A stretch of 23,418 nucleotides of DNA from a virus. The stretch spans positions 1 to 23,418 of IMG/VR virus record IMGVR_UViG_3300005288_000820. One strand, given 5' to 3'. Positions 5,531 to 21,137 of the stretch are shown here, one piece after another (the first letter of the stretch is position 1; every line of letters starts with the position of its first letter). The notes under the pieces are model-generated. The model was given only the letters and a program-made list of their open reading frames with translations, searched no databases and was not told the DNA's origin. Position numbers and translations under genes: made by a program.

Positions 5531-5839
5531 TCAAATTTTGGAGCCAGAGGGACCCAGACCCATCGACGCACCATTATGGCGCGTGGTCGGTGCCTGTTGT
5601 TGGATGCAGGCCAGCACCTGGGCGGCGCAGGTCTTCAACGCGTCTTCAGTCACTAACACGGCATCCTCCCATTGCTCATTGGCCAGCACCGCCGGGCGTG
5701 CCGGCAGGCGGCAGGCTACCAGCGGACAGGGCTGCGCTTGGCTTGTACTGGGTTGGGTCGGTGGTTTCTGGACGGGCGAACTGCACCCCGTAAGCAGCAG
5801 GTACAGCACCGGCCAGGTAATCGGCGATAGCTTGATCAT
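5531..5839 (-). CDS. Rz1-like outer-membrane spanin lipoprotein
   Basis: This is the outer-membrane half of the two-component spanin that fuses the membranes at the end of lysis. The start ATG has AGGAG about 10 nt upstream. The protein opens with a lipoprotein signal, MIKLSPITWPVLYLLLTGCSS, with lipobox LLTG-C and the lipidated Cys at residue 19. It continues with a Pro/Gln/Ser-rich segment (PVQKPPTQPSTSQAQP) and a Cys-containing C-terminus. The first half lies in another frame inside the Rz gene, the classical Rz/Rz1 nesting. At 102 residues it is longer than lambda Rz1, because it runs past the Rz stop. Confidence 0.85.
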   Translation of the reverse strand: MIKLSPITWPVLYLLLTGCSSPVQKPPTQPSTSQAQPCPLVACRLPARPAVLANEQWEDAVLVTEDALKTCAAQVLACIQQQAPTTRHNGASMGLGPSGSKI

Positions 5840-12601: not shown

Positions 12602-12662
12602 ATAAGCATGCTTATATCCTAAGTAGAAGGACACTTATTTGCAAGCCGATAAGGGAACTTAT
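12602..12662. promoter_or_regulatory. Right operator region: three repressor sites
   Basis: Three 14-bp sites share ATAAG-N4-CTTAT. They are ATAAGCATGCTTAT (12602-12615, perfect palindrome), AGAAGGACACTTAT (12625-12638, 10/14 to the first) and ATAAGGGAACTTAT (12649-12662, both half-sites perfect). Starts are 23 and 24 bp apart, as in lambda OR. The cro-side site covers the pR start, the middle lies between the pR hexamers, and the cI-side site overlaps the pRM -10. Confidence 0.88.
12616..12644 (-). promoter_or_regulatory. pR promoter (drives cro, cII, O, P)
   Basis: On the minus strand, -35 TTGCAA (12639-12644), a 17-bp spacer and -10 TAGGAT (12616-12621) place the start near 12609. That is inside the palindromic operator and about 23 nt before the cro ATG. 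Bound repressor at the first two operators would block it. Confidence 0.65.
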
Positions 12663-12665
12663 AAA
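12638..12665 (+). promoter_or_regulatory. pRM promoter (drives cI)
   Basis: On the plus strand, -10 TATAAA (12660-12665) and a weak -35 TTTGCA (12638-12643), 16 bp apart, give a start near 12672. This is only about 3 nt before the cI ATG, so the cI mRNA would be leaderless or nearly so. The -35 abuts the middle operator, which suits activation by bound CI. Confidence 0.55.
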
Positions 12666-12674
12666 TTCCAGCGG

Positions 12675-13331
12675 ATGAGCACACTCGCCGAAAGAATCAA
12701 ATCCGCACGAAATCACGCCAAGCTGACGCAGAAAGCCCTCGCCCTAAAGGTGGGGGTCGAGCAGCCAGTGATTTCGCAGCTGGAGACAGGAAAGAACCTT
12801 CAAAGCGCACACCTGCCAAAAATTGCACATGTGTGTGGGGTGAACGCTATTTGGCTCTCCGAGAACATTGGGCCTATGACTGGCTCGAGCACTGTCGACT
12901 CAAACGTAAGCAACGCTCGCCAACCCGCTGAGTCCTACCGCTACCCGGTTATCAGCTGGGTCGCCGCCGGCGCCTGGGCTGAAGCTGTTGAGCCCTACCC
13001 TGCCGGATTCTCTGATCGATACGAGTTTTCCGAATACGACTCGAAGGGCGCTGCTTTCTGGCTTGAGGTCAAAGGAGACTCGATGACTTCACCCGTCGGG
13101 CAAAGCGTCACCGAAGGCACTCTGATTCTCGTGGACACCGAAGCCGAGGCAGCACCTGGCAAGCTGGTGATCGCCAAGCTGCCTGCTAGCAACGAGGCGA
13201 CGTTCAAGAAGCTCGTCAATGATGGCGGGAGACTTTTCTTAAAGCCGCTGAACCCTGGGTACCCGATTGAACCGTTTGACGAGCATTGCCGGATCGTGGG
13301 CGTCGTCGTACGGGCGCTGCAGAAGTTCTGA
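12675..13331 (+). CDS. CI-like prophage repressor (helix-turn-helix, LexA-type S24 self-cleaving)
   Basis: This is the maintenance repressor. Residues 3-60 form a Cro/CI helix-turn-helix (LAERIKSARNHAKLTQKALALKVGVEQPVISQLETGK). The C-terminal half is a peptidase S24 domain: cleavage site Ala98-Gly99 in WVAAGAW, nucleophile Ser136 in KGDSMTSP, general base about Lys178 in EATFKKL. RecA-stimulated self-cleavage and SOS induction are therefore expected. I chose the ATG directly at the conserved domain; the upstream frame runs through the operators. There is no strong Shine-Dalgarno, which fits a near-leaderless mRNA. The 69-residue ORF follows after 2 bp. Confidence 0.93.
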   Translation: MSTLAERIKSARNHAKLTQKALALKVGVEQPVISQLETGKNLQSAHLPKIAHVCGVNAIWLSENIGPMTGSSTVDSNVSNARQPAESYRYPVISWVAAGAWAEAVEPYPAGFSDRYEFSEYDSKGAAFWLEVKGDSMTSPVGQSVTEGTLILVDTEAEAAPGKLVIAKLPASNEATFKKLVNDGGRLFLKPLNPGYPIEPFDEHCRIVGVVVRALQKF

Positions 13332-13896: not shown

Positions 13897-13921
13897 TCTG
13901 AAGAAGTAGCAAGGAATGCAA

Positions 13922-14668
13922 ATGTTAGAGCGCATTACCGCTAAGGAAATCATAAGGCAGAGCGAACAAGGCTTGTCTGTCCAGCCTTTCCTTGTCAGGG
14001 CTGAAGACGATCAGACTTACTTCGTCAAAGGTCTTTCAAGAGCCCTTGGCAATGGGCTGGTTTCGGAAGCTCTATCTGCCGAGCTGGGTGCGCACCTCGG
14101 ACTACCCATCCCTCCATGGAGGGTGATTGATATCCCTCAGGCCTTAATTGATTTTAGCGTCATGGATGGGATTGGAGACTTAAGTGGTGGCCCGGCATTC
14201 GCTTCGCTTCAAGTTGAGAATGCTTCTGACCTGATGTGGGCAAATCTAAATTCGCTACCTGTCGATCTGAAAAGAAAGGTTTTACTCTTTGATTGGTGGA
14301 TACTGAATGGTGATCGTGGACTTGGAGAAATTGGAGGGAACGTCAATCTCATCCTGAACCCGAAAGGGGAGCTCGTGGTGATTGACCACAACGTGGCGTT
14401 CGACCCAAATCTCAGCCTAGAAGAGTTCAGGAGGTACCACGTCTTTCGAGACCAGTTAGGCTCGTTTGATGGAAACCTACTCGCTCGTCTGGATTATTTA
14501 CCACTTCTTGACGCGGCCCTCGATGACTGGGGTAGGATCACCTCCCTCCTACCGGAGGAATGGCTTTGTCGGAACCAAGATCCCGACGACGAATATGAAC
14601 CAACCCTTCAGCAAAGGCTTCAAATACTGGAAAGGTTCAAGGATGAGCAGTTCTGGGGGCAATTATGA
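13922..14668 (+). CDS. HipA-like kinase (HipA_2 family)
   Basis: This 248-residue stand-alone HipA-like Ser/Thr kinase has a nucleotide-binding Lys36 in YFVKGL, GNGLVSEALSAELGAHLGLPIPPWRVID (about 43-70), a catalytic Asp131 in LNGDRG with Asn140/142 in GGNVNLIL, and metal-binding Asp155 in VVIDHNVAFD. That is the HipA D-R...N...D order. No N-terminal HipA subdomain or HipB partner is present. AAGGA stands 6 nt before the chosen ATG; an ATG two codons earlier would lie inside that Shine-Dalgarno. The stop overlaps the DUF3037 gene (ATGA). HipA phosphorylates Glu-tRNA synthetase; the target here is unknown. The position between cI and pL suggests lysogen expression. Confidence 0.85.
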   Translation: MLERITAKEIIRQSEQGLSVQPFLVRAEDDQTYFVKGLSRALGNGLVSEALSAELGAHLGLPIPPWRVIDIPQALIDFSVMDGIGDLSGGPAFASLQVENASDLMWANLNSLPVDLKRKVLLFDWWILNGDRGLGEIGGNVNLILNPKGELVVIDHNVAFDPNLSLEEFRRYHVFRDQLGSFDGNLLARLDYLPLLDAALDDWGRITSLLPEEWLCRNQDPDDEYEPTLQQRLQILERFKDEQFWGQL

Positions 14669-15501
14669 ACTACATCTGTAACTACTCGATTCTAAGATTC
14701 CTTCCTTACCCAGAAACGGGTGAGTTTGTGAATATTGGGATCGTGCTGCTTGCGAACAATGGAGAATTCCGCTTCAAAATTGCCACGAAACGCCAGCGTG
14801 TAACTCGATTTTTCGAAACCCTTGAGCACAAGGTTTACCTTCGTGCGAAAAGCGAGGTTGAGGATGAGTTCAACCGCCTGGTTGGATTCTGCGCACGGCA
14901 CAAAAACGAGATCAGCCTGCTATCGAGCACATTCAAGCATCTCATTCACCCCCGGGAGACGATGATGCGTTTCAGCCAGCCGGGGTCTATGGCAACAGAC
15001 AACATCGGCCAAGCTTTGGATGAGCTATTCGATCACTATGTAAATCACAGCTTTGCTAACAAGGAATACCAAGAGAAAGTCTTGGAGCGCCAGCTTGGTA
15101 CTCTTCTGGCCTCTTCAAACCTGAAGCAGCGCTACAAAGAGCAGCGCTTAGGCACCAAAGATTACGACGTCAGGTTTCCTTTCGTAATGCTTGCTGATCA
15201 GATAGCAGAACAGGCAATCAAGCCTCTTTATTTTGGACAGGCCGAGCCTTCTAAGATTCTTGAGCATGGTGACGCATGGTTGTCGAAGGTCATGCGTCTG
15301 AATAAGGCGAACAGGCTGGCGAAAGACACCTTATTTATTACAGAGCCTCCTGCGCCAGGAAAGCCAAAGCTCCTCAAGGCTTATGACGAGGTAACCCATG
15401 CTCTTGCTGAGTTTGAGGGAGTGAGGGTTATTAGCTCGCACATGCCTAATAAACAAAAACTTGAAGAAATAAAGCGAGGGGTTCCTGAGACCCTTCACTG
15501 A
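14665..15501 (+). CDS. DUF3037 protein, partner of the HipA-like kinase
   Basis: This 278-residue protein begins with the DUF3037 signature: NYICNYSILRFLPYPETGEFVNIGIVLL, then ANNGEFRFKIATKRQRVTRFF. Its middle holds a long helical part and it ends in a Lys-rich tail. It is translationally coupled to the kinase by ATGA overlap, with GGGGGC upstream. From my knowledge of these families the HipA_2/DUF3037 pair recurs in unrelated bacteria, which implies joint function as a toxin-antitoxin, phage-defence or regulatory pair. Its biochemical role is not known to me. A terminator follows directly, so the pair forms its own transcription unit end. Confidence 0.82.
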   Translation: MNYICNYSILRFLPYPETGEFVNIGIVLLANNGEFRFKIATKRQRVTRFFETLEHKVYLRAKSEVEDEFNRLVGFCARHKNEISLLSSTFKHLIHPRETMMRFSQPGSMATDNIGQALDELFDHYVNHSFANKEYQEKVLERQLGTLLASSNLKQRYKEQRLGTKDYDVRFPFVMLADQIAEQAIKPLYFGQAEPSKILEHGDAWLSKVMRLNKANRLAKDTLFITEPPAPGKPKLLKAYDEVTHALAEFEGVRVISSHMPNKQKLEEIKRGVPETLH

Positions 15502-16360: not shown

Positions 16361-16612
16361 ATGTCAAAAATTGCGTCACCCGTATCAAACACCAGAAACT
16401 CATATGAATTGGTTGGCCGGCGCATCCAACGCCTGATAGCTGCTCCCGGTGTTCAAAAGGTCCAAGCCATAATTGTCACCAGACTCGAAGCAGAACCCGC
16501 TGAAGCATGGCAGCAAGTCCTTCAGGAGATTGAAGAGACGAGTGGCGTAAGCATGGAGCGCCTTGAGAGCGGCGCGGTAAGGATCGGATGGAGAGAGTAC
16601 TGCGAAGCCTGA
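16361..16612 (+). CDS. DUF1654 protein under LexA control
   Basis: This 83-residue protein belongs to the DUF1654 family, found mainly in Pseudomonas and its phages. The typical run is SYELVGRRIQRLIAAPGVQK, then VQAIIVTRLEAEPAEAWQQVLQEIEE and ESGAVRIGWR at the end. AAGGAG stands 6 nt before the ATG. The upstream LexA box means it is induced by DNA damage, independently of CI. It lies just before the pL operators, so transcription from it approaches pL, although a terminator intervenes. A role in prophage induction (as for LexA-controlled antirepressors) or in DNA-damage tolerance is possible but unproven. Confidence 0.87.
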   Translation: MSKIASPVSNTRNSYELVGRRIQRLIAAPGVQKVQAIIVTRLEAEPAEAWQQVLQEIEETSGVSMERLESGAVRIGWREYCEA

Positions 16613-16616
16613 AATG

Positions 16617-16639
16617 AGCCCGCCTTCGAGCGGGCTTTT
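16617..16639 (+). terminator. Terminator between the DUF1654 gene and pL
   Basis: A perfect 7-bp stem AGCCCGC/GCGGGCT, loop CTTCGA, then four T (first included in the stem). It insulates pL from the SOS promoter. Confidence 0.75.
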
Positions 16640-16659
16640 GATCGTCTTTGTAAAAATTT

Positions 16660-16698
16660 ATAAGCATGCTTATTGACTGATAAAATAAGCTGGCTTAT
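16660..16698. promoter_or_regulatory. Left operator region: two repressor sites
   Basis: ATAAGCATGCTTAT at 16660-16673 is identical over 14 bp to the cro-side operator 4 kb away. ATAAGCTGGCTTAT lies at 16685-16698. The starts are 25 bp apart. The first site touches the pL -35 and the second overlaps the -10. Two operator clusters on either side of the cI segment would allow CI looping as between lambda OR and OL. Confidence 0.9.
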
Positions 16699-16701
16699 AT
16701 T
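16673..16701 (+). promoter_or_regulatory. pL promoter
   Basis: TTGACT (16673-16678), 17-bp spacer, TATATT (16696-16701): the best sigma-70 promoter in the window. Predicted start near 16708. It drives the rightward operon ending in xis and int and is overlapped on both hexamers by repressor sites. Confidence 0.9.
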
Positions 16702-16745
16702 TGATCCAGGCCAAGACATCACCGGCCCAGCAGCGAAAGCCGCGC

Positions 16746-16757
16746 CGCTCTTTAACA
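16746..16757 (+). promoter_or_regulatory. boxA antitermination signal in the pL leader
   Basis: CGCTCTTTAACA, about 40 nt into the pL transcript, equals the consensus boxA of lambdoid nut sites and rRNA leaders (the following AATC is also rrn-like). NusB/NusE bind boxA RNA. No compact boxB hairpin follows directly. Confidence 0.75.
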
Positions 16758-17111
16758 ATCAGCGCAACAAACAACAGACCGCATTGCCTCTACCGGCGAC
16801 CGGCGATCAGACAGGTGAAAGAGGAAAGCCTGCCAACTCGAGGGACAACCCTTGACGGCTGATCGATGGTGAAACGCCAGAACCGTGTGAATGACCCGGC
16901 ATGCAATGCGCCCCGCCCCTTCCGGCGGCAATTGGACGGACAGCATCACTGCTGCACCTTGGCGACAGGGTGCATCGGGATGTGGGCGAAACCCCGGCTT
17001 ATACCGGCCACCTGCATTGTTCTGCTCACCCAGCGCGGAGGATTGGCAGCCATGTGAACTTCAGATACCCGCACAGCCCTCATGCACTCGGCGGGCTCGT
17101 TACGTAAGAGT

Positions 17112-17137
17112 AAAGCCAGATTTCGGTCTGGCTTTTT
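17112..17137 (+). terminator. Terminator in the pL leader (tL1-like)
   Basis: A 9-bp perfect stem AAAGCCAGA/TCTGGCTTT with loop TTTCGG and a run of T. It stands between pL and the first gene of the operon, so expression beyond it needs readthrough. Confidence 0.85.
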
Positions 17138-17152
17138 ACGCCTGCCTTTATC

Positions 17153-17208
17153 CGTCAGCACTCACCTCTTCACCCAACGGCAACCAGCTCGCGGTCCGAG
17201 TGCTGACG
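17153..17208. repeat. 11-bp inverted repeat before the 120-residue gene
   Basis: CGTCAGCACTC (17153-17163) and GAGTGCTGACG (17198-17208) are perfect complements with a 34-nt loop. In RNA this is a long, stable stem ending 30 nt before the next start codon. It may control translation or be an RNase III site. Confidence 0.6.
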
Positions 17209-17238
17209 AATACACGCAACCCACATCGAGGATTCGCC

Positions 17239-17601
17239 ATGAACCAAACCATCAGACAGAGCCAAGCAATTCTCCATGGGTTGCGGCTTAGAACTTCGCT
17301 GGCCACCGCGGAGATGTACCAACGGATCGGCCGAGATGAACCCGTCCGCGCTCCGCGCTTCAACGTCGTTCCCCGGGGTAGCAACACGTTCGAGGTGATC
17401 GAGCGCTCCTCCGGCATGGCAAAGGGTGAACGGTTTGGCCATGATAGTGCCTGCCAGCTCGCCCAACGGCTCGAGGACAACGCCGACTTCTTCGCCGCGC
17501 GCCGAAAGTCGATGAAGAAGTTTTCCTGCACGCTTCTGCGCTGGACTGTCGGCGCGGCGCTGATGCTGATCGTGTTTGCCTACTACGGATCGGGTCTTTG
17601 A
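17239..17601 (+). CDS. Hypothetical phage protein with C-terminal membrane anchor
   Basis: This 120-residue product is the first gene of the pL operon. GAGGA stands 7 nt before the ATG. The first 95 residues are soluble (MNQTIRQSQAILHGLRLRTS, RFNVVPRGSNTFEVIERSSGMAKGERFGHDSACQLAQRLED, a small beta-helix module) and a single hydrophobic span closes the chain (LLRWTVGAALMLIVFAYYGSGL). It is probably a tail-anchored inner-membrane protein facing the cytoplasm. Early-expressed membrane proteins in this place include host-takeover or exclusion factors; no family is recognised. Confidence 0.7.
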   Translation: MNQTIRQSQAILHGLRLRTSLATAEMYQRIGRDEPVRAPRFNVVPRGSNTFEVIERSSGMAKGERFGHDSACQLAQRLEDNADFFAARRKSMKKFSCTLLRWTVGAALMLIVFAYYGSGL

Positions 17602-18069: not shown

Positions 18070-18756
18070 TCATGCAGGCGTAACGTCAGATAGTCGCGAA
18101 TAGCCCTTGAACAAATTAGACCATATCACCTTGTCTTTATGACCGATTTGCATGAATGAAGGTTCGTCGCCCTTCAAAACTTCAATCTTTTCACCGTCAG
18201 CTATCAGGTAGACACTTTCAGGCAGCGTGAATGCAATACGGTATTCGGCCTCGACTGAGTACAGCTCAGCGTCTTTGAAGAAAATCAAAGCCTCTTCAAC
18301 TGGCGGGGACGAAGTCATCACGCTCGGGTAATACGTAATGTCTCCGTGCAGGACTCTAATGGGGAGGCGTTTGGCGACAATTTTCTCTAGGTACTCCACA
18401 AGAAAATCCGTATCGACCTCGATGCATACATCCGCTTTGAAGCGAGAAAACATTTCGAGATCGTCTTTTTTATGGCTAAGGCATAAGCAATAGCACCGGG
18501 GCACTGGAAGCTCGACACCTGGATGATCTATCAGCTCGTCAGAGTTAATGGTTTTCCCATTAATTTCTATCGTGAAATGCTCCTTATGCAGGTTAAAAAT
18601 TCGCCGGGATTCATCGTCTCTAACGATTTCGTTCTCCATCGACTTGTAGTGAATGATGTCGCAAAACCTGACCCCTCTGTCTTCCGGAACGTCCTTTCCA
18701 CCATCCAGAAAAATTCCCAGATGTTCGTATTTTCCGTACAGGTATTTGCTTCCCAT
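18070..18756 (-). CDS. Unknown protein, partner of the RelA/SpoT-domain gene
   Basis: This 228-residue soluble protein is downstream of the RelA/SpoT gene on the same strand (102-bp gap). AAGGAG stands 7-8 nt before the ATG and a 15-bp hairpin lies just upstream. Visible parts are GKYEHLGIFLDGGKDVPEDRGVRFCDIIHY, then VPRCYCLCLSHKKDDLEMFSRFKADVCIEVDTDFLVEYLEKIV and AEYRIAFTLPESVYLI. This order of a Cys-rich strand, DD-x-x-MF and a substrate-like strand faintly recalls DUF2971-type proteins, but I would not assign it. The AT-rich composition, unlike the phage genes, and the strand opposite to the pL operon mark it as cargo. Confidence 0.75.
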   Translation of the reverse strand: MGSKYLYGKYEHLGIFLDGGKDVPEDRGVRFCDIIHYKSMENEIVRDDESRRIFNLHKEHFTIEINGKTINSDELIDHPGVELPVPRCYCLCLSHKKDDLEMFSRFKADVCIEVDTDFLVEYLEKIVAKRLPIRVLHGDITYYPSVMTSSPPVEEALIFFKDAELYSVEAEYRIAFTLPESVYLIADGEKIEVLKGDEPSFMQIGHKDKVIWSNLFKGYSRLSDVTPA

Positions 18757-18858
18757 CGAATCGCTCCTTGATCCGGCACCATGCCGGCCAACACGTATAG
18801 CCCACCTCTCCTGCACCACACAGCGTCGGAGAGGCCATTCCCATGACCTCATGCGTTG

Positions 18859-19881
18859 TTACTCGGGTTTCGCAGTATTTCGCCTGCTTCTGACGATCCG
18901 TTTGTTATTAGTGATAGGGATCTTCAATTTGCGCCCGTCAGAAGACATAACATACATGTAAGAATCAGGTGCCTCTTTTTCTTCAGCTCCCGTTTTAATG
19001 GCCTTCCTAACATTATCAAGCTCTTTTTGAATAAGAGCCATCTGAGCGGCGGATTCGCTGTTCAATTGTTGAGCAGAACTAAGCTGGGAAACGAGTTTTT
19101 GCATTTCCTCCAGCGCTTGATCCCTATCTTGATCAGCTCTAACGATCCTCTCATCGATAACATCAAATTCATTACTTAAATCTTTAATAAACCCACCGAG
19201 CTCATCTGCACTGCCTGACAATCTATTAAATATCTTTAAAACCTCCTCAACTTGCTTATTCTCCGAGAAGTTTGGATATCGGACTTTGTGATCTATCTCG
19301 CTCCAAGCCTCTTCAAAAATCGTTCTAACCTGGAGCTCAACAAATATATCAGTTACTCCGGGTCGCATTTTAAGAATATAGTGAACCGAACGATAGCCTG
19401 CCCGGTGAACCTTGGAATTAATTCCGCATTGCTTCAAACCATCTATCAAATCAGATCTGTCTCCAGCGCGAACATAAGATACTGGTTTCTCACCGAGCGG
19501 CCACATTTCAACAACTTGAGGATGGATCTTGAAGACATCAGACTTAAACAAATGAAGAGCTCTAACGCCGATCAGATCATTAACCACGGAAAAGTAGTTA
19601 CCAGCGCAAATAGTTTGGTACTTTTTTGAGACCTTTTCTTCACACCGCTTTCTTATTATTTTTTCAAGCAGATGCTCGACATCTTTTACACGCCACCTTA
19701 CGGAGTGAACACCTTCGAACCCTTGCACTGTTTTAACAACGTATTCGGCCGCATCCTCCAGCTGACGTTTCCTCAGGAGATAATCATCCTTAATAGCCAA
19801 TAGCTCTTGCCACTCAATAGATGCTCTGTCCCAATCTTCACTGGATATCTTATTTCGATTGAGAAATCCTATCCGTTCCAT
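18859..19881 (-). CDS. RelA/SpoT-domain nucleotide pyrophosphokinase (small alarmone synthetase/toxSAS-like)
   Basis: This 340-residue protein has a (p)ppGpp-synthetase-type domain at about 60-205. It shows Asp102 in NDLIGVRA, Tyr163 and His167 in AGYRSVHYIL, and Glu182, Gln184 and Arg186 in VELQVRTIFEEAWSEIDHKVRYP. These are the residues for ATP and acceptor binding, so the enzyme looks active. No HD hydrolase, TGS or ACT domain is present. A coiled coil follows (about 245-300), then a basic tail. AAGGAG and GAAGGA precede the ATG. Prophage-borne relatives such as CapRel and FaRel modify tRNA or make alarmones in anti-phage toxin systems; which reaction this one performs cannot be read from sequence. 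Low GC indicates transfer. Confidence 0.88.
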   Translation of the reverse strand: MERIGFLNRNKISSEDWDRASIEWQELLAIKDDYLLRKRQLEDAAEYVVKTVQGFEGVHSVRWRVKDVEHLLEKIIRKRCEEKVSKKYQTICAGNYFSVVNDLIGVRALHLFKSDVFKIHPQVVEMWPLGEKPVSYVRAGDRSDLIDGLKQCGINSKVHRAGYRSVHYILKMRPGVTDIFVELQVRTIFEEAWSEIDHKVRYPNFSENKQVEEVLKIFNRLSGSADELGGFIKDLSNEFDVIDERIVRADQDRDQALEEMQKLVSQLSSAQQLNSESAAQMALIQKELDNVRKAIKTGAEEKEAPDSYMYVMSSDGRKLKIPITNNKRIVRSRRNTAKPE

Positions 19882-19941
19882 GTCCTTCGCTCCTTTAGTG
19901 ACACATCAATGCGATGCCCAATCAGACACCATCCGCCATAA

Positions 19942-20298
19942 TTTTGCCACTATGCTGCATCCAGTCACGAAGGGCGGCGCCTGACTGGAGATAGTGAGGT
20001 TCGCGACTTCAAGATCGAGAAAGGTAAGCGGATCGAACTGTCCATGAGCCAGTGGCTACAGGCTGTCGAGGATCGCGTCATAAAAATCATCGGCGGCAAG
20101 CGCATCGCCCTGCTCAGCAGCATGTTCGACGCCCCTCCAGTACGCCGCCGACTACGCCGAACGTATCCGCAAGCTTGGTCGATGCCGCGACGTCATCATC
20201 AGAGCGAAGATCAAGCTGCCACAGGATGACTTGAGGCGGAAGTCGGCGACCAAGCTTTCGTGGATGGATTACTCGGCTGAATCAACAGCGACCGTCTG
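19942..20298 (+). pseudogene. Remnant of a plus-strand phage gene (no start, frameshifted)
   Basis: An open frame without start codon reads EVRDFKIEKGKRIELSMSQWLQAVEDRVIKIIGGKRIALLSSMFDAP. At about 20137 the protein-like reading moves to another frame (QYAADYAERIRKLGRCRDVIIRAKIKLPQDDLRRKSATKLSWMDYSAE) and ends at TGA. Both halves are typical phage-like, GC-rich coding sequence. They lie between minus-strand, AT-rich cargo genes, so the original pL-operon gene seems to have lost its 5' end when cargo was inserted and then gained an indel. No family is recognised. The first 48 bases (19942-19989) may be junction sequence rather than gene. Confidence 0.65.
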
Positions 20299-20317
20299 AT
20301 CCGACCAATCTCGAAAA

Positions 20318-21082
20318 TTAGCTCGCCCCCATTCGCTGCAGACGACTAACTGGACCTTTACGATCATTGATCGCATCGGCAAGCATTTTGAGAGCCTGCT
20401 TGCGCTCACCATAGACTTCTTCAAGCAAATACTCCGTAATTTCAAATGCATGCAAAGCGTCATCAAATTCAACTTCATTGCCTGGATGGCTTCCATGATT
20501 CCCAAGCCATCTGATTGCACTAAAAAGCTCTCTTACTGGGTTTTGTGCTTCCGGAAGTAACTGCATTCTGTTTCCGAAGGAAATGAATTTATCCCCGTCT
20601 TTTTCTGGAATTCCTAGCTCCGTTAGAACCTTTTCAGCAGCAATTCTAATGTTGTTGCAGCACGACGCTGGGCTTGAAAAATAAAGAGCGCTCGCCGTAC
20701 CAAGTGGCGAAGTTACGTCATTCGGAGCCTTCGATGGGTAATCAATTAGTTGAAGCGCCGGATGAAAATATGTTGGACGGTAGAATGAGTTGTATTCTCG
20801 AGTCCAATCGCCATTTTCATCGACGTCATACTCTTCCTCAACCACTCCATTCCCGACCACAAAAACGAGTTCCGAACAAGTAGTGCACTTAAGCGTGCAA
20901 CTAAATACAAGCATAATGTTTTCTGGGTCCCACCAGTCTTCATTGTGCTCGGCACGAGAAGCTTCAGTTTCCTTAGAATTGAACTCTCCATCAATGCGGA
21001 GCAGGCCTGCGTAACAATGGGGGCACTTGTACTCTGGTATTTGTTTACTAGTGAATGCACCCTTCAGTATTTCTTTATTCAT
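20318..21082 (-). CDS. Zinc-ribbon plus DUF4145 protein
   Basis: This 254-residue protein has a zinc ribbon made of CPHC (residues 20-23) and CTTC (66-69) around a Trp-rich loop. The C-terminal half matches DUF4145: SSPASCCNNIRIAAEKVLTELGIP, then LFSAIRWLGNHGSHPGNEVEFDDALHAFEITEYLLEEVYG. DUF4145 domains often accompany restriction and other defence genes; the molecular role is not settled. GGAG stands about 7 nt before the chosen ATG, which is favoured over an ATG four codons upstream. It is monocistronic, minus-strand and AT-rich, as expected of a moron. Confidence 0.82.
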   Translation of the reverse strand: MNKEILKGAFTSKQIPEYKCPHCYAGLLRIDGEFNSKETEASRAEHNEDWWDPENIMLVFSCTLKCTTCSELVFVVGNGVVEEEYDVDENGDWTREYNSFYRPTYFHPALQLIDYPSKAPNDVTSPLGTASALYFSSPASCCNNIRIAAEKVLTELGIPEKDGDKFISFGNRMQLLPEAQNPVRELFSAIRWLGNHGSHPGNEVEFDDALHAFEITEYLLEEVYGERKQALKMLADAINDRKGPVSRLQRMGAS

Positions 21083-21137
21083 TCCCTGCTCCATTCATTC
21101 ATTCATGAGATCGCATCATAAATCTTGAGGTATCCAC

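Follow-up and report, generated by a model that had tools for sequence, protein, structure and literature searches.

How could the early-left operon of a phage be transcribed through a long untranslated leader and a strong terminator if the phage has no recognisable N gene? This question is raised by positions 16708-17230 of a 23,418-nucleotide stretch of viral DNA (IMG/VR record IMGVR_UViG_3300005288_000820, positions 1 to 23,418; the whole stretch is referred to here as the window). The original prediction had read these positions as a pL leader with an rrn-type boxA, many hairpins and a terminator, and had considered that antitermination might be brought about by an RNA element or by the host rrn-type complex alone.

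Promoter, boxA and terminator of the leader

The leader lies behind a predicted sigma70 promoter (TTGACT-17-TATATT, 16673-16701, plus strand), whose start is expected near 16708. Two CI-type operators flank the promoter (TAAGCATGCTTA at 16661-16672 and TAAGCTGGCTTA at 16686-16697). The operator palindrome TAAGCNNGCTTA has exact copies at both of these places and at 12603-12614 in the cI/cro interval, amounting to three copies in the window versus 0.35 expected, and a gene for a CI-type repressor with HTH and S24 peptidase parts is located upstream (12639-13331). Because the palindromes around the promoter are repeated between cI and cro, the promoter is pL under CI control, in support of the proposal that this is a pL leader. 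The same layout, with the leader directly behind a CI-operated pL, is found in most homologous loci. A TTGACN-17-TATNTT-like promoter is present in most of them, its -10 element ending about 40-60 nt upstream of boxA; since the scan gave one top site for each locus, with no background for comparison, it is the regular spacing between promoter and boxA that provides the evidence. In the window and in L002-L009 the leader has a repressor gene on its upstream side and other genes on its downstream side; L010 has no annotated repressor, and L001 carries no annotation in this part. The same leader is also found in loci whose operator palindromes clearly differ, and is thus independent of immunity type.

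The window has no other exact match to the boxA (GCTCTTTAACAA, 16747-16758, plus strand). The 14-mer that contains it, CCGCTCTTTAACAA, agrees at all 14 nt with the boxA of the rrn leaders in two Pseudomonas genomes, and GCTCTTTAACA at 16747 fits the gamma-proteobacterial consensus GYTCTTTAANA (PMC5725501), so that the assignment as an rrn-type consensus boxA holds. Among 73 homologous loci, 70 have a boxA upstream of the structured core RNA described below (class I). The distance between the two is 20-32 nt in about two thirds of the loci and 88-129 nt in the rest, which carry inserted extra stem-loops. Elsewhere in class I loci, about 1 Mb of remaining sequence holds just two copies of the motif. 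A previous survey covered only boxA elements at most 50 bp from gene starts and, as stated there, placed non-coding RNAs outside its scope (PMC5725501); this limit would explain why boxA leaders were missed.

In the window, the leader runs into an intrinsic terminator, AAAGCCAGATTTCGGTCTGGCTTTTT (17112-17135, plus strand), read directly as AAAGCCAGA-TTTCGG-TCTGGCTTT followed by TTTACG. Its GCCAGA stem (-9.3 kcal/mol) is located about 357 nt after boxA, and no promoter-like site was found in the window between it and the first early-left gene beyond (phrog_6742, 17239-17601, plus strand). The terminator predicted some 360 nt after boxA is thus present here, but it is not constant across the family. 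An intrinsic terminator separates pL from the early genes in some relatives, whereas none was found close downstream of most homologous leaders, which rules it out as a constant partner of the leader. At least one canonical terminator lies within 3 kb in about 25 of 67 loci, as read from the list, and the operon shows no excess of plus-strand terminators (59 versus 119 on the minus strand in the 67 loci). Just before the terminator (17041-17110), a GGAGG Shine-Dalgarno sequence is followed by ATGTGA, an arrangement kept in L001, and translation from an overlapping GTG would yield a short leader peptide that ends at the terminator. In L002 (phage PS-1), the Rfam Proteo-phage-1 RNA (RF03044) is found further down the same early-left operon (5634-5713, plus strand).

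A structured core RNA and the hairpin element B

What does the stretch between boxA and terminator contain? We found no convincing ORF in it, in line with the original prediction. Folded as a single sequence, the leader does not differ significantly from shuffles (z -1.14; 11 of 100 fold equally well), and many hairpins, the other feature that had been pointed out, are therefore not evidence by themselves. What does stand of this claim is that two hairpin regions are separate conserved elements, the core and element B.

The core is a structured RNA of about 130 nt (16780-16910, plus strand) that is recognised by its covariation and by covariance model R1, which the core of the window matches with 150 bits (E 2.5e-30). 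It is closed by the long-range helix P1 (16780-16787/16903-16910) and further comprises P2 (16804-16810/16859-16865), P3 (16812-16816/16828-16832), P4 (16839-16843/16850-16854), P5 (16867-16871/16875-16879) and a tentative P6 (16883-16885/16897-16899), in which changes are one-sided only. Two loops are nearly invariant: GGCGACCGGCGA (16795-16806) and GAATGACC (16889-16896; GAAYGACC). In alignment A2, which holds 41 non-redundant cores under the hand-built structure P1-P6, 94.1% of cells are paired compared to 82.4% in shuffles and 24-33% in slid controls. Double changes affect 17 of the 33 pairs, with 138 compensatory cells versus 42 in shuffles. Alignment A3, fitted to the covariance model and made of 96 distinct cmsearch hits with divergent members included, gives 368 double-change cells versus 94 in shuffles. 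By eye, the divergent members L289-L294 have P3 and P4 swapped for another segment and retain P1, P2, P5 and the loops through compensatory change. A structure obtained by RNAalifold on a MAFFT alignment was mixed (columns 17-19 with 91-93) and was discarded, the hand-built P1 and P2 explaining far more double changes.

The original prediction had made its reading depend on conservation and covariation of the leader among relatives. We find it conserved in more than 100 homologous class I loci, with strong covariation. Coding potential is not the cause: the hypothetical protein that the annotation of UFJF_PfDIW6 places here is an overlapping ORF of the opposite strand, and covariation accounts for the conservation. 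Among the phages matched by blastn, the annotated regions examined show no gene that covers the core on its own strand. A known RNA family was likewise ruled out as the identity of the core, because Rfam yields no family over 16600-17300 at the gathering threshold, nor at E up to 1. By every test available on sequences, the class I core is a new RNA family, and in our view the leader is almost certainly a structured and conserved cis element.

Element B (16943-16984, plus strand) is a hairpin with a bulged A, of the form CATC-A-CTG-stem-loop-stem-YGG-GATG, in which the UC-A-CUG / YGG-GA segment is nearly invariant. In alignment A4 its cells are paired to 97.3% (76.4% in shuffles), with 137 double-change cells versus 34, and the copy in the window scores 58 bits against model R2 (E 3.9e-14). 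An element B lies at most 900 nt from the core in 44 of 73 loci versus 8 of 365 shuffles, R2 detects it in 37 of 49 records, and 49 of 51 pattern matches are on the plus strand, downstream of the core. It adjoins Shine-Dalgarno sequences, being placed just upstream of them, and an ATG or GTG follows 5-32 nt after 80 of 91 distinct copies. Copies are also found before later genes and without any boxA leader. Element B has a wider occurrence than the core, being present in 71 of 119 Pseudomonas genomes; its count in the class sample was 0 of 274, with the centre genome itself lacking B and the sample hence having no positive control. Two copies each are present in L131, L036, L028, L182 and L287. 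Judging from its sequence and surroundings, element B looks like a protein-binding or translational element.

Range and modular build of the leader

How far does the leader extend beyond the window? When phage records were searched by blastn, about 30 Pseudomonas phages matched, most of the matches covering the segment from boxA to core. A DNA pattern of the two loops retrieved at least 120 stretches in IMG/VR and, in GTDB genomes, Pseudomonas prophages among many chance matches in other taxa. R1 matches 33 of 249 genomes sampled from the genus Pseudomonas, 20 of 248 sampled from the family and, in the class sample, only the centre genome among 369; in the genomes sampled, the core is confined to Pseudomonadaceae. 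A single strong R1 match is present in 49 of 50 phage records, the remaining one (G032, E 0.47) being a chance pattern match, and searches with R1, boxA and B revealed no second copy at pR apart from one chance-level boxA match. Individual loci deviate. L199, a 3291-bp contig in a Bacteroidales MAG, carries a class I leader and is probably a misbinned Pseudomonas phage contig. In L282 (3354-4103, minus strand), the core is followed by what by eye is an HNH-endonuclease-type ORF and then by a partial second copy of the core 3' half. The core 3' half of L009 (phage VW-6S, 3501-3700) is swapped for unrelated sequence directly before the integrase gene, and this leader is apparently broken.

Copies of element B without a class I core, searched for without requiring boxA, are frequently preceded by the same boxA at a distance of 110-230 nt, and the structured RNA in between is of another kind. 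Three further scans relied on boxA and B alone, with no core sequence. Pooled with the earlier loci and cleared of chance matches, they bring the set to 231 distinct leaders, which simple motifs assign to class I (108), III (23), V (23), II (19) and IV (5), to I/III chimeras (2) or to none of these (51); leaders of classes II-V, chimeras and unassigned leaders are found among L304-L333 and L334-L604. As the three scans fixed boxA, its conservation in those leaders is not evidence. Covariation is seen in class III (135 double-change cells versus 42 in shuffles) and class II (20 versus 3.7), and class V is weakly supported (10 versus 4.2). In the chimeras L082 and L129, a class I core follows a 5' module of class III. 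Together with the interchangeable cores between boxA and B, these chimeras imply that the leader is modular, composed of pL, boxA, core, B and first gene. At least four further putative structured RNA classes (II-V) lie between boxA and B in other Pseudomonas phages. A small hairpin with the loop CAGUA (GCCCAGTAGGC or GACGCCAGTAGCG) recurs within otherwise different leader classes; it is carried by L018, L040 and L084 (in the core) and by L005, L312, L315, L321 and L333.

Possible modes of action and known systems

How might the leader act? The pL transcript would carry a host-type boxA, the branched core closed by P1, hairpin B and then the early genes. We lean, with reservations, towards a scenario whereby this leader, together with Nus factors of the host, serves as an RNA antiterminator in cis. 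Host NusB-S10, with NusA, NusG and SuhB, would bind boxA and tether the 5' end of the RNA to the polymerase, and the folded core might contact the polymerase or the Nus complex in such a way that the polymerase resists termination. It could then pass intrinsic terminators such as that at 17112-17135, as well as Rho-dependent sites in the untranslated leader and the early operon, and a phage N-like protein would not be required. The downstream genes differ among loci, which argues against control of a single gene and for an operon-wide role. Conversely, the lack of a conserved terminator and of any excess of plus-strand terminators speaks against antitermination, as does the presence of one copy per phage and none at pR: the nut sites of lambda form a pair, L and R, and put sites are paired likewise.

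Does a phage protein accompany the leader? In 52 loci with adequate flanks, neither BLAST nor HMM searches revealed a protein family common to all within 6 kb, and the proposed lack of a recognisable N gene is upheld. The commonest real family, DUF1654, which occurs in both orientations, is present in 25 of the 52 loci by BLAST and in 26 by HMM, and is thereby ruled out as a universal partner that would supply the missing factor; its gene in the window (16361-16612, plus strand; Pfam PF07867, E 1.7e-20) is just upstream of pL and outside the leader. One repressor family is found in 24 of the 52 loci, no downstream family in more than 16, and the first genes are mutually unrelated. The N36 profile had no match above cut-off in any of 40 records, a weak result given that control genomes gave none either. 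A small, fast-evolving phage protein could escape both kinds of search. Other genes of the window include a HipA-like kinase (PF20613) beside a DUF3037 protein between cI and pL (13916-15501, plus strand), which match the candidate defence pair PDC-M66A/B. Facing the early-left operon (18070-21094, minus strand) are a RelA/SpoT-domain protein (PF04607) with a partner gene and a DUF4145 protein weakly similar to PD-T7-4; these genes are possible defence or toxin-antitoxin cargo.

A phage protein missed by the searches would be central if the core were a nut-like site for an unrecognised phage-encoded RNA-binding antiterminator, a possibility that we consider rather improbable. A branched RNA beside boxA is the layout of lambda nut, small proteins including DUF1654 and phrog_6742 flank the leader, and the bulged A gives element B the look of a protein-binding hairpin. 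Yet no family is present in all loci within 6 kb (best 26 of 52) despite the nearly invariant loops, and the silence of N36 points weakly in the same direction. Alternatively, the leader may resemble that of rrn operons, boxA recruiting Nus factors and SuhB only to shield the untranslated leader of about 530 nt from Rho and to aid the folding of P1; the core would have another job, for example in mRNA 5' end stability, and would leave the polymerase unmodified. This is unlikely, albeit worth serious attention, since the boxA is the host rrn boxA, sits just before the 5' arm of a long-range helix as boxA does before the 16S stem, and is not followed by constant intrinsic terminators; moreover, boxA complexes aid rRNA folding and guard non-coding RNA from Rho (PMC4807359). 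A simple Rho shield, however, needs no core of about 130 nt with near-invariant loops, and leaves the several alternative cores in the same frame unneeded. We give only a slim chance to a leader that acts in trans or on translation, be it as a phage small RNA, a decoy for host factors or a translational switch of the first gene. The position of element B shortly before start codons (80 of 91 copies), also at later genes and outside boxA leaders, would suit it, whereas no constant terminator after the core makes a discrete small RNA evident, the first genes are unrelated to each other, and boxA would be left unexplained.

If antitermination by the leader is real, then RNA-only or Nus-assisted antitermination would be a widespread phage strategy, as roughly one in eight of the Pseudomonas genomes sampled carries a class I leader and further classes occupy the same slot. 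It would explain why a recognisable N gene is absent from early regulation in these phages, and the leaders would be natural RNA tools to study boxA complexes at intrinsic terminators. A bolder version, that at least five unrelated cores are interchangeable RNA antiterminators using host Nus factors alone and form the usual early switch of many Pseudomonas phages, strikes us as doubtful. To our knowledge, RNA-mediated antitermination in phages is known essentially from HK022 and close relatives, and we found no paper in the open-access literature on a Pseudomonas phage RNA antiterminator or on a boxA-core leader.

Among known systems, the rrn leader shares with ours a boxA, identical over 14 nt, that precedes the 5' arm of a long-range helix; unlike it, our leader belongs to a phage operon and has a core RNA of its own. 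The complex formed at rrn boxA is mostly associated with protection from Rho and with RNA folding rather than with passage through intrinsic terminators (PMC4807359). As in lambda nutL, boxA is close behind pL, but no boxB/N pair was found in the phage, and the core is far larger than boxB. The EAR element of Bacillus, from another phylum and a cellular operon, is also a structured RNA proposed as a processive antiterminator; our leader matches no Rfam family, which covers EAR provided that the library contains it. Antitermination by put involves no phage protein and proceeds through the beta' zinc-binding domain. The put RNA of HK022 overcomes intrinsic as well as Rho-dependent termination with no dedicated protein; it measures about 70 nt, forms two stem-loops and is present in two copies (pL and pR), and boxA does not figure in the structure paper (PMC9378689). 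Our leader is ruled out as put proper by its size, fold, copy number and boxA: its core of about 130 nt is branched, with five to six helices, it has an rrn boxA and a single copy at pL only, and no sequence relation is seen. What it has in common with put is an untranslated RNA just after an early promoter, no linked antiterminator protein and a proposed action in cis on the elongating polymerase. If the antitermination reading is right, the leader would work like put.
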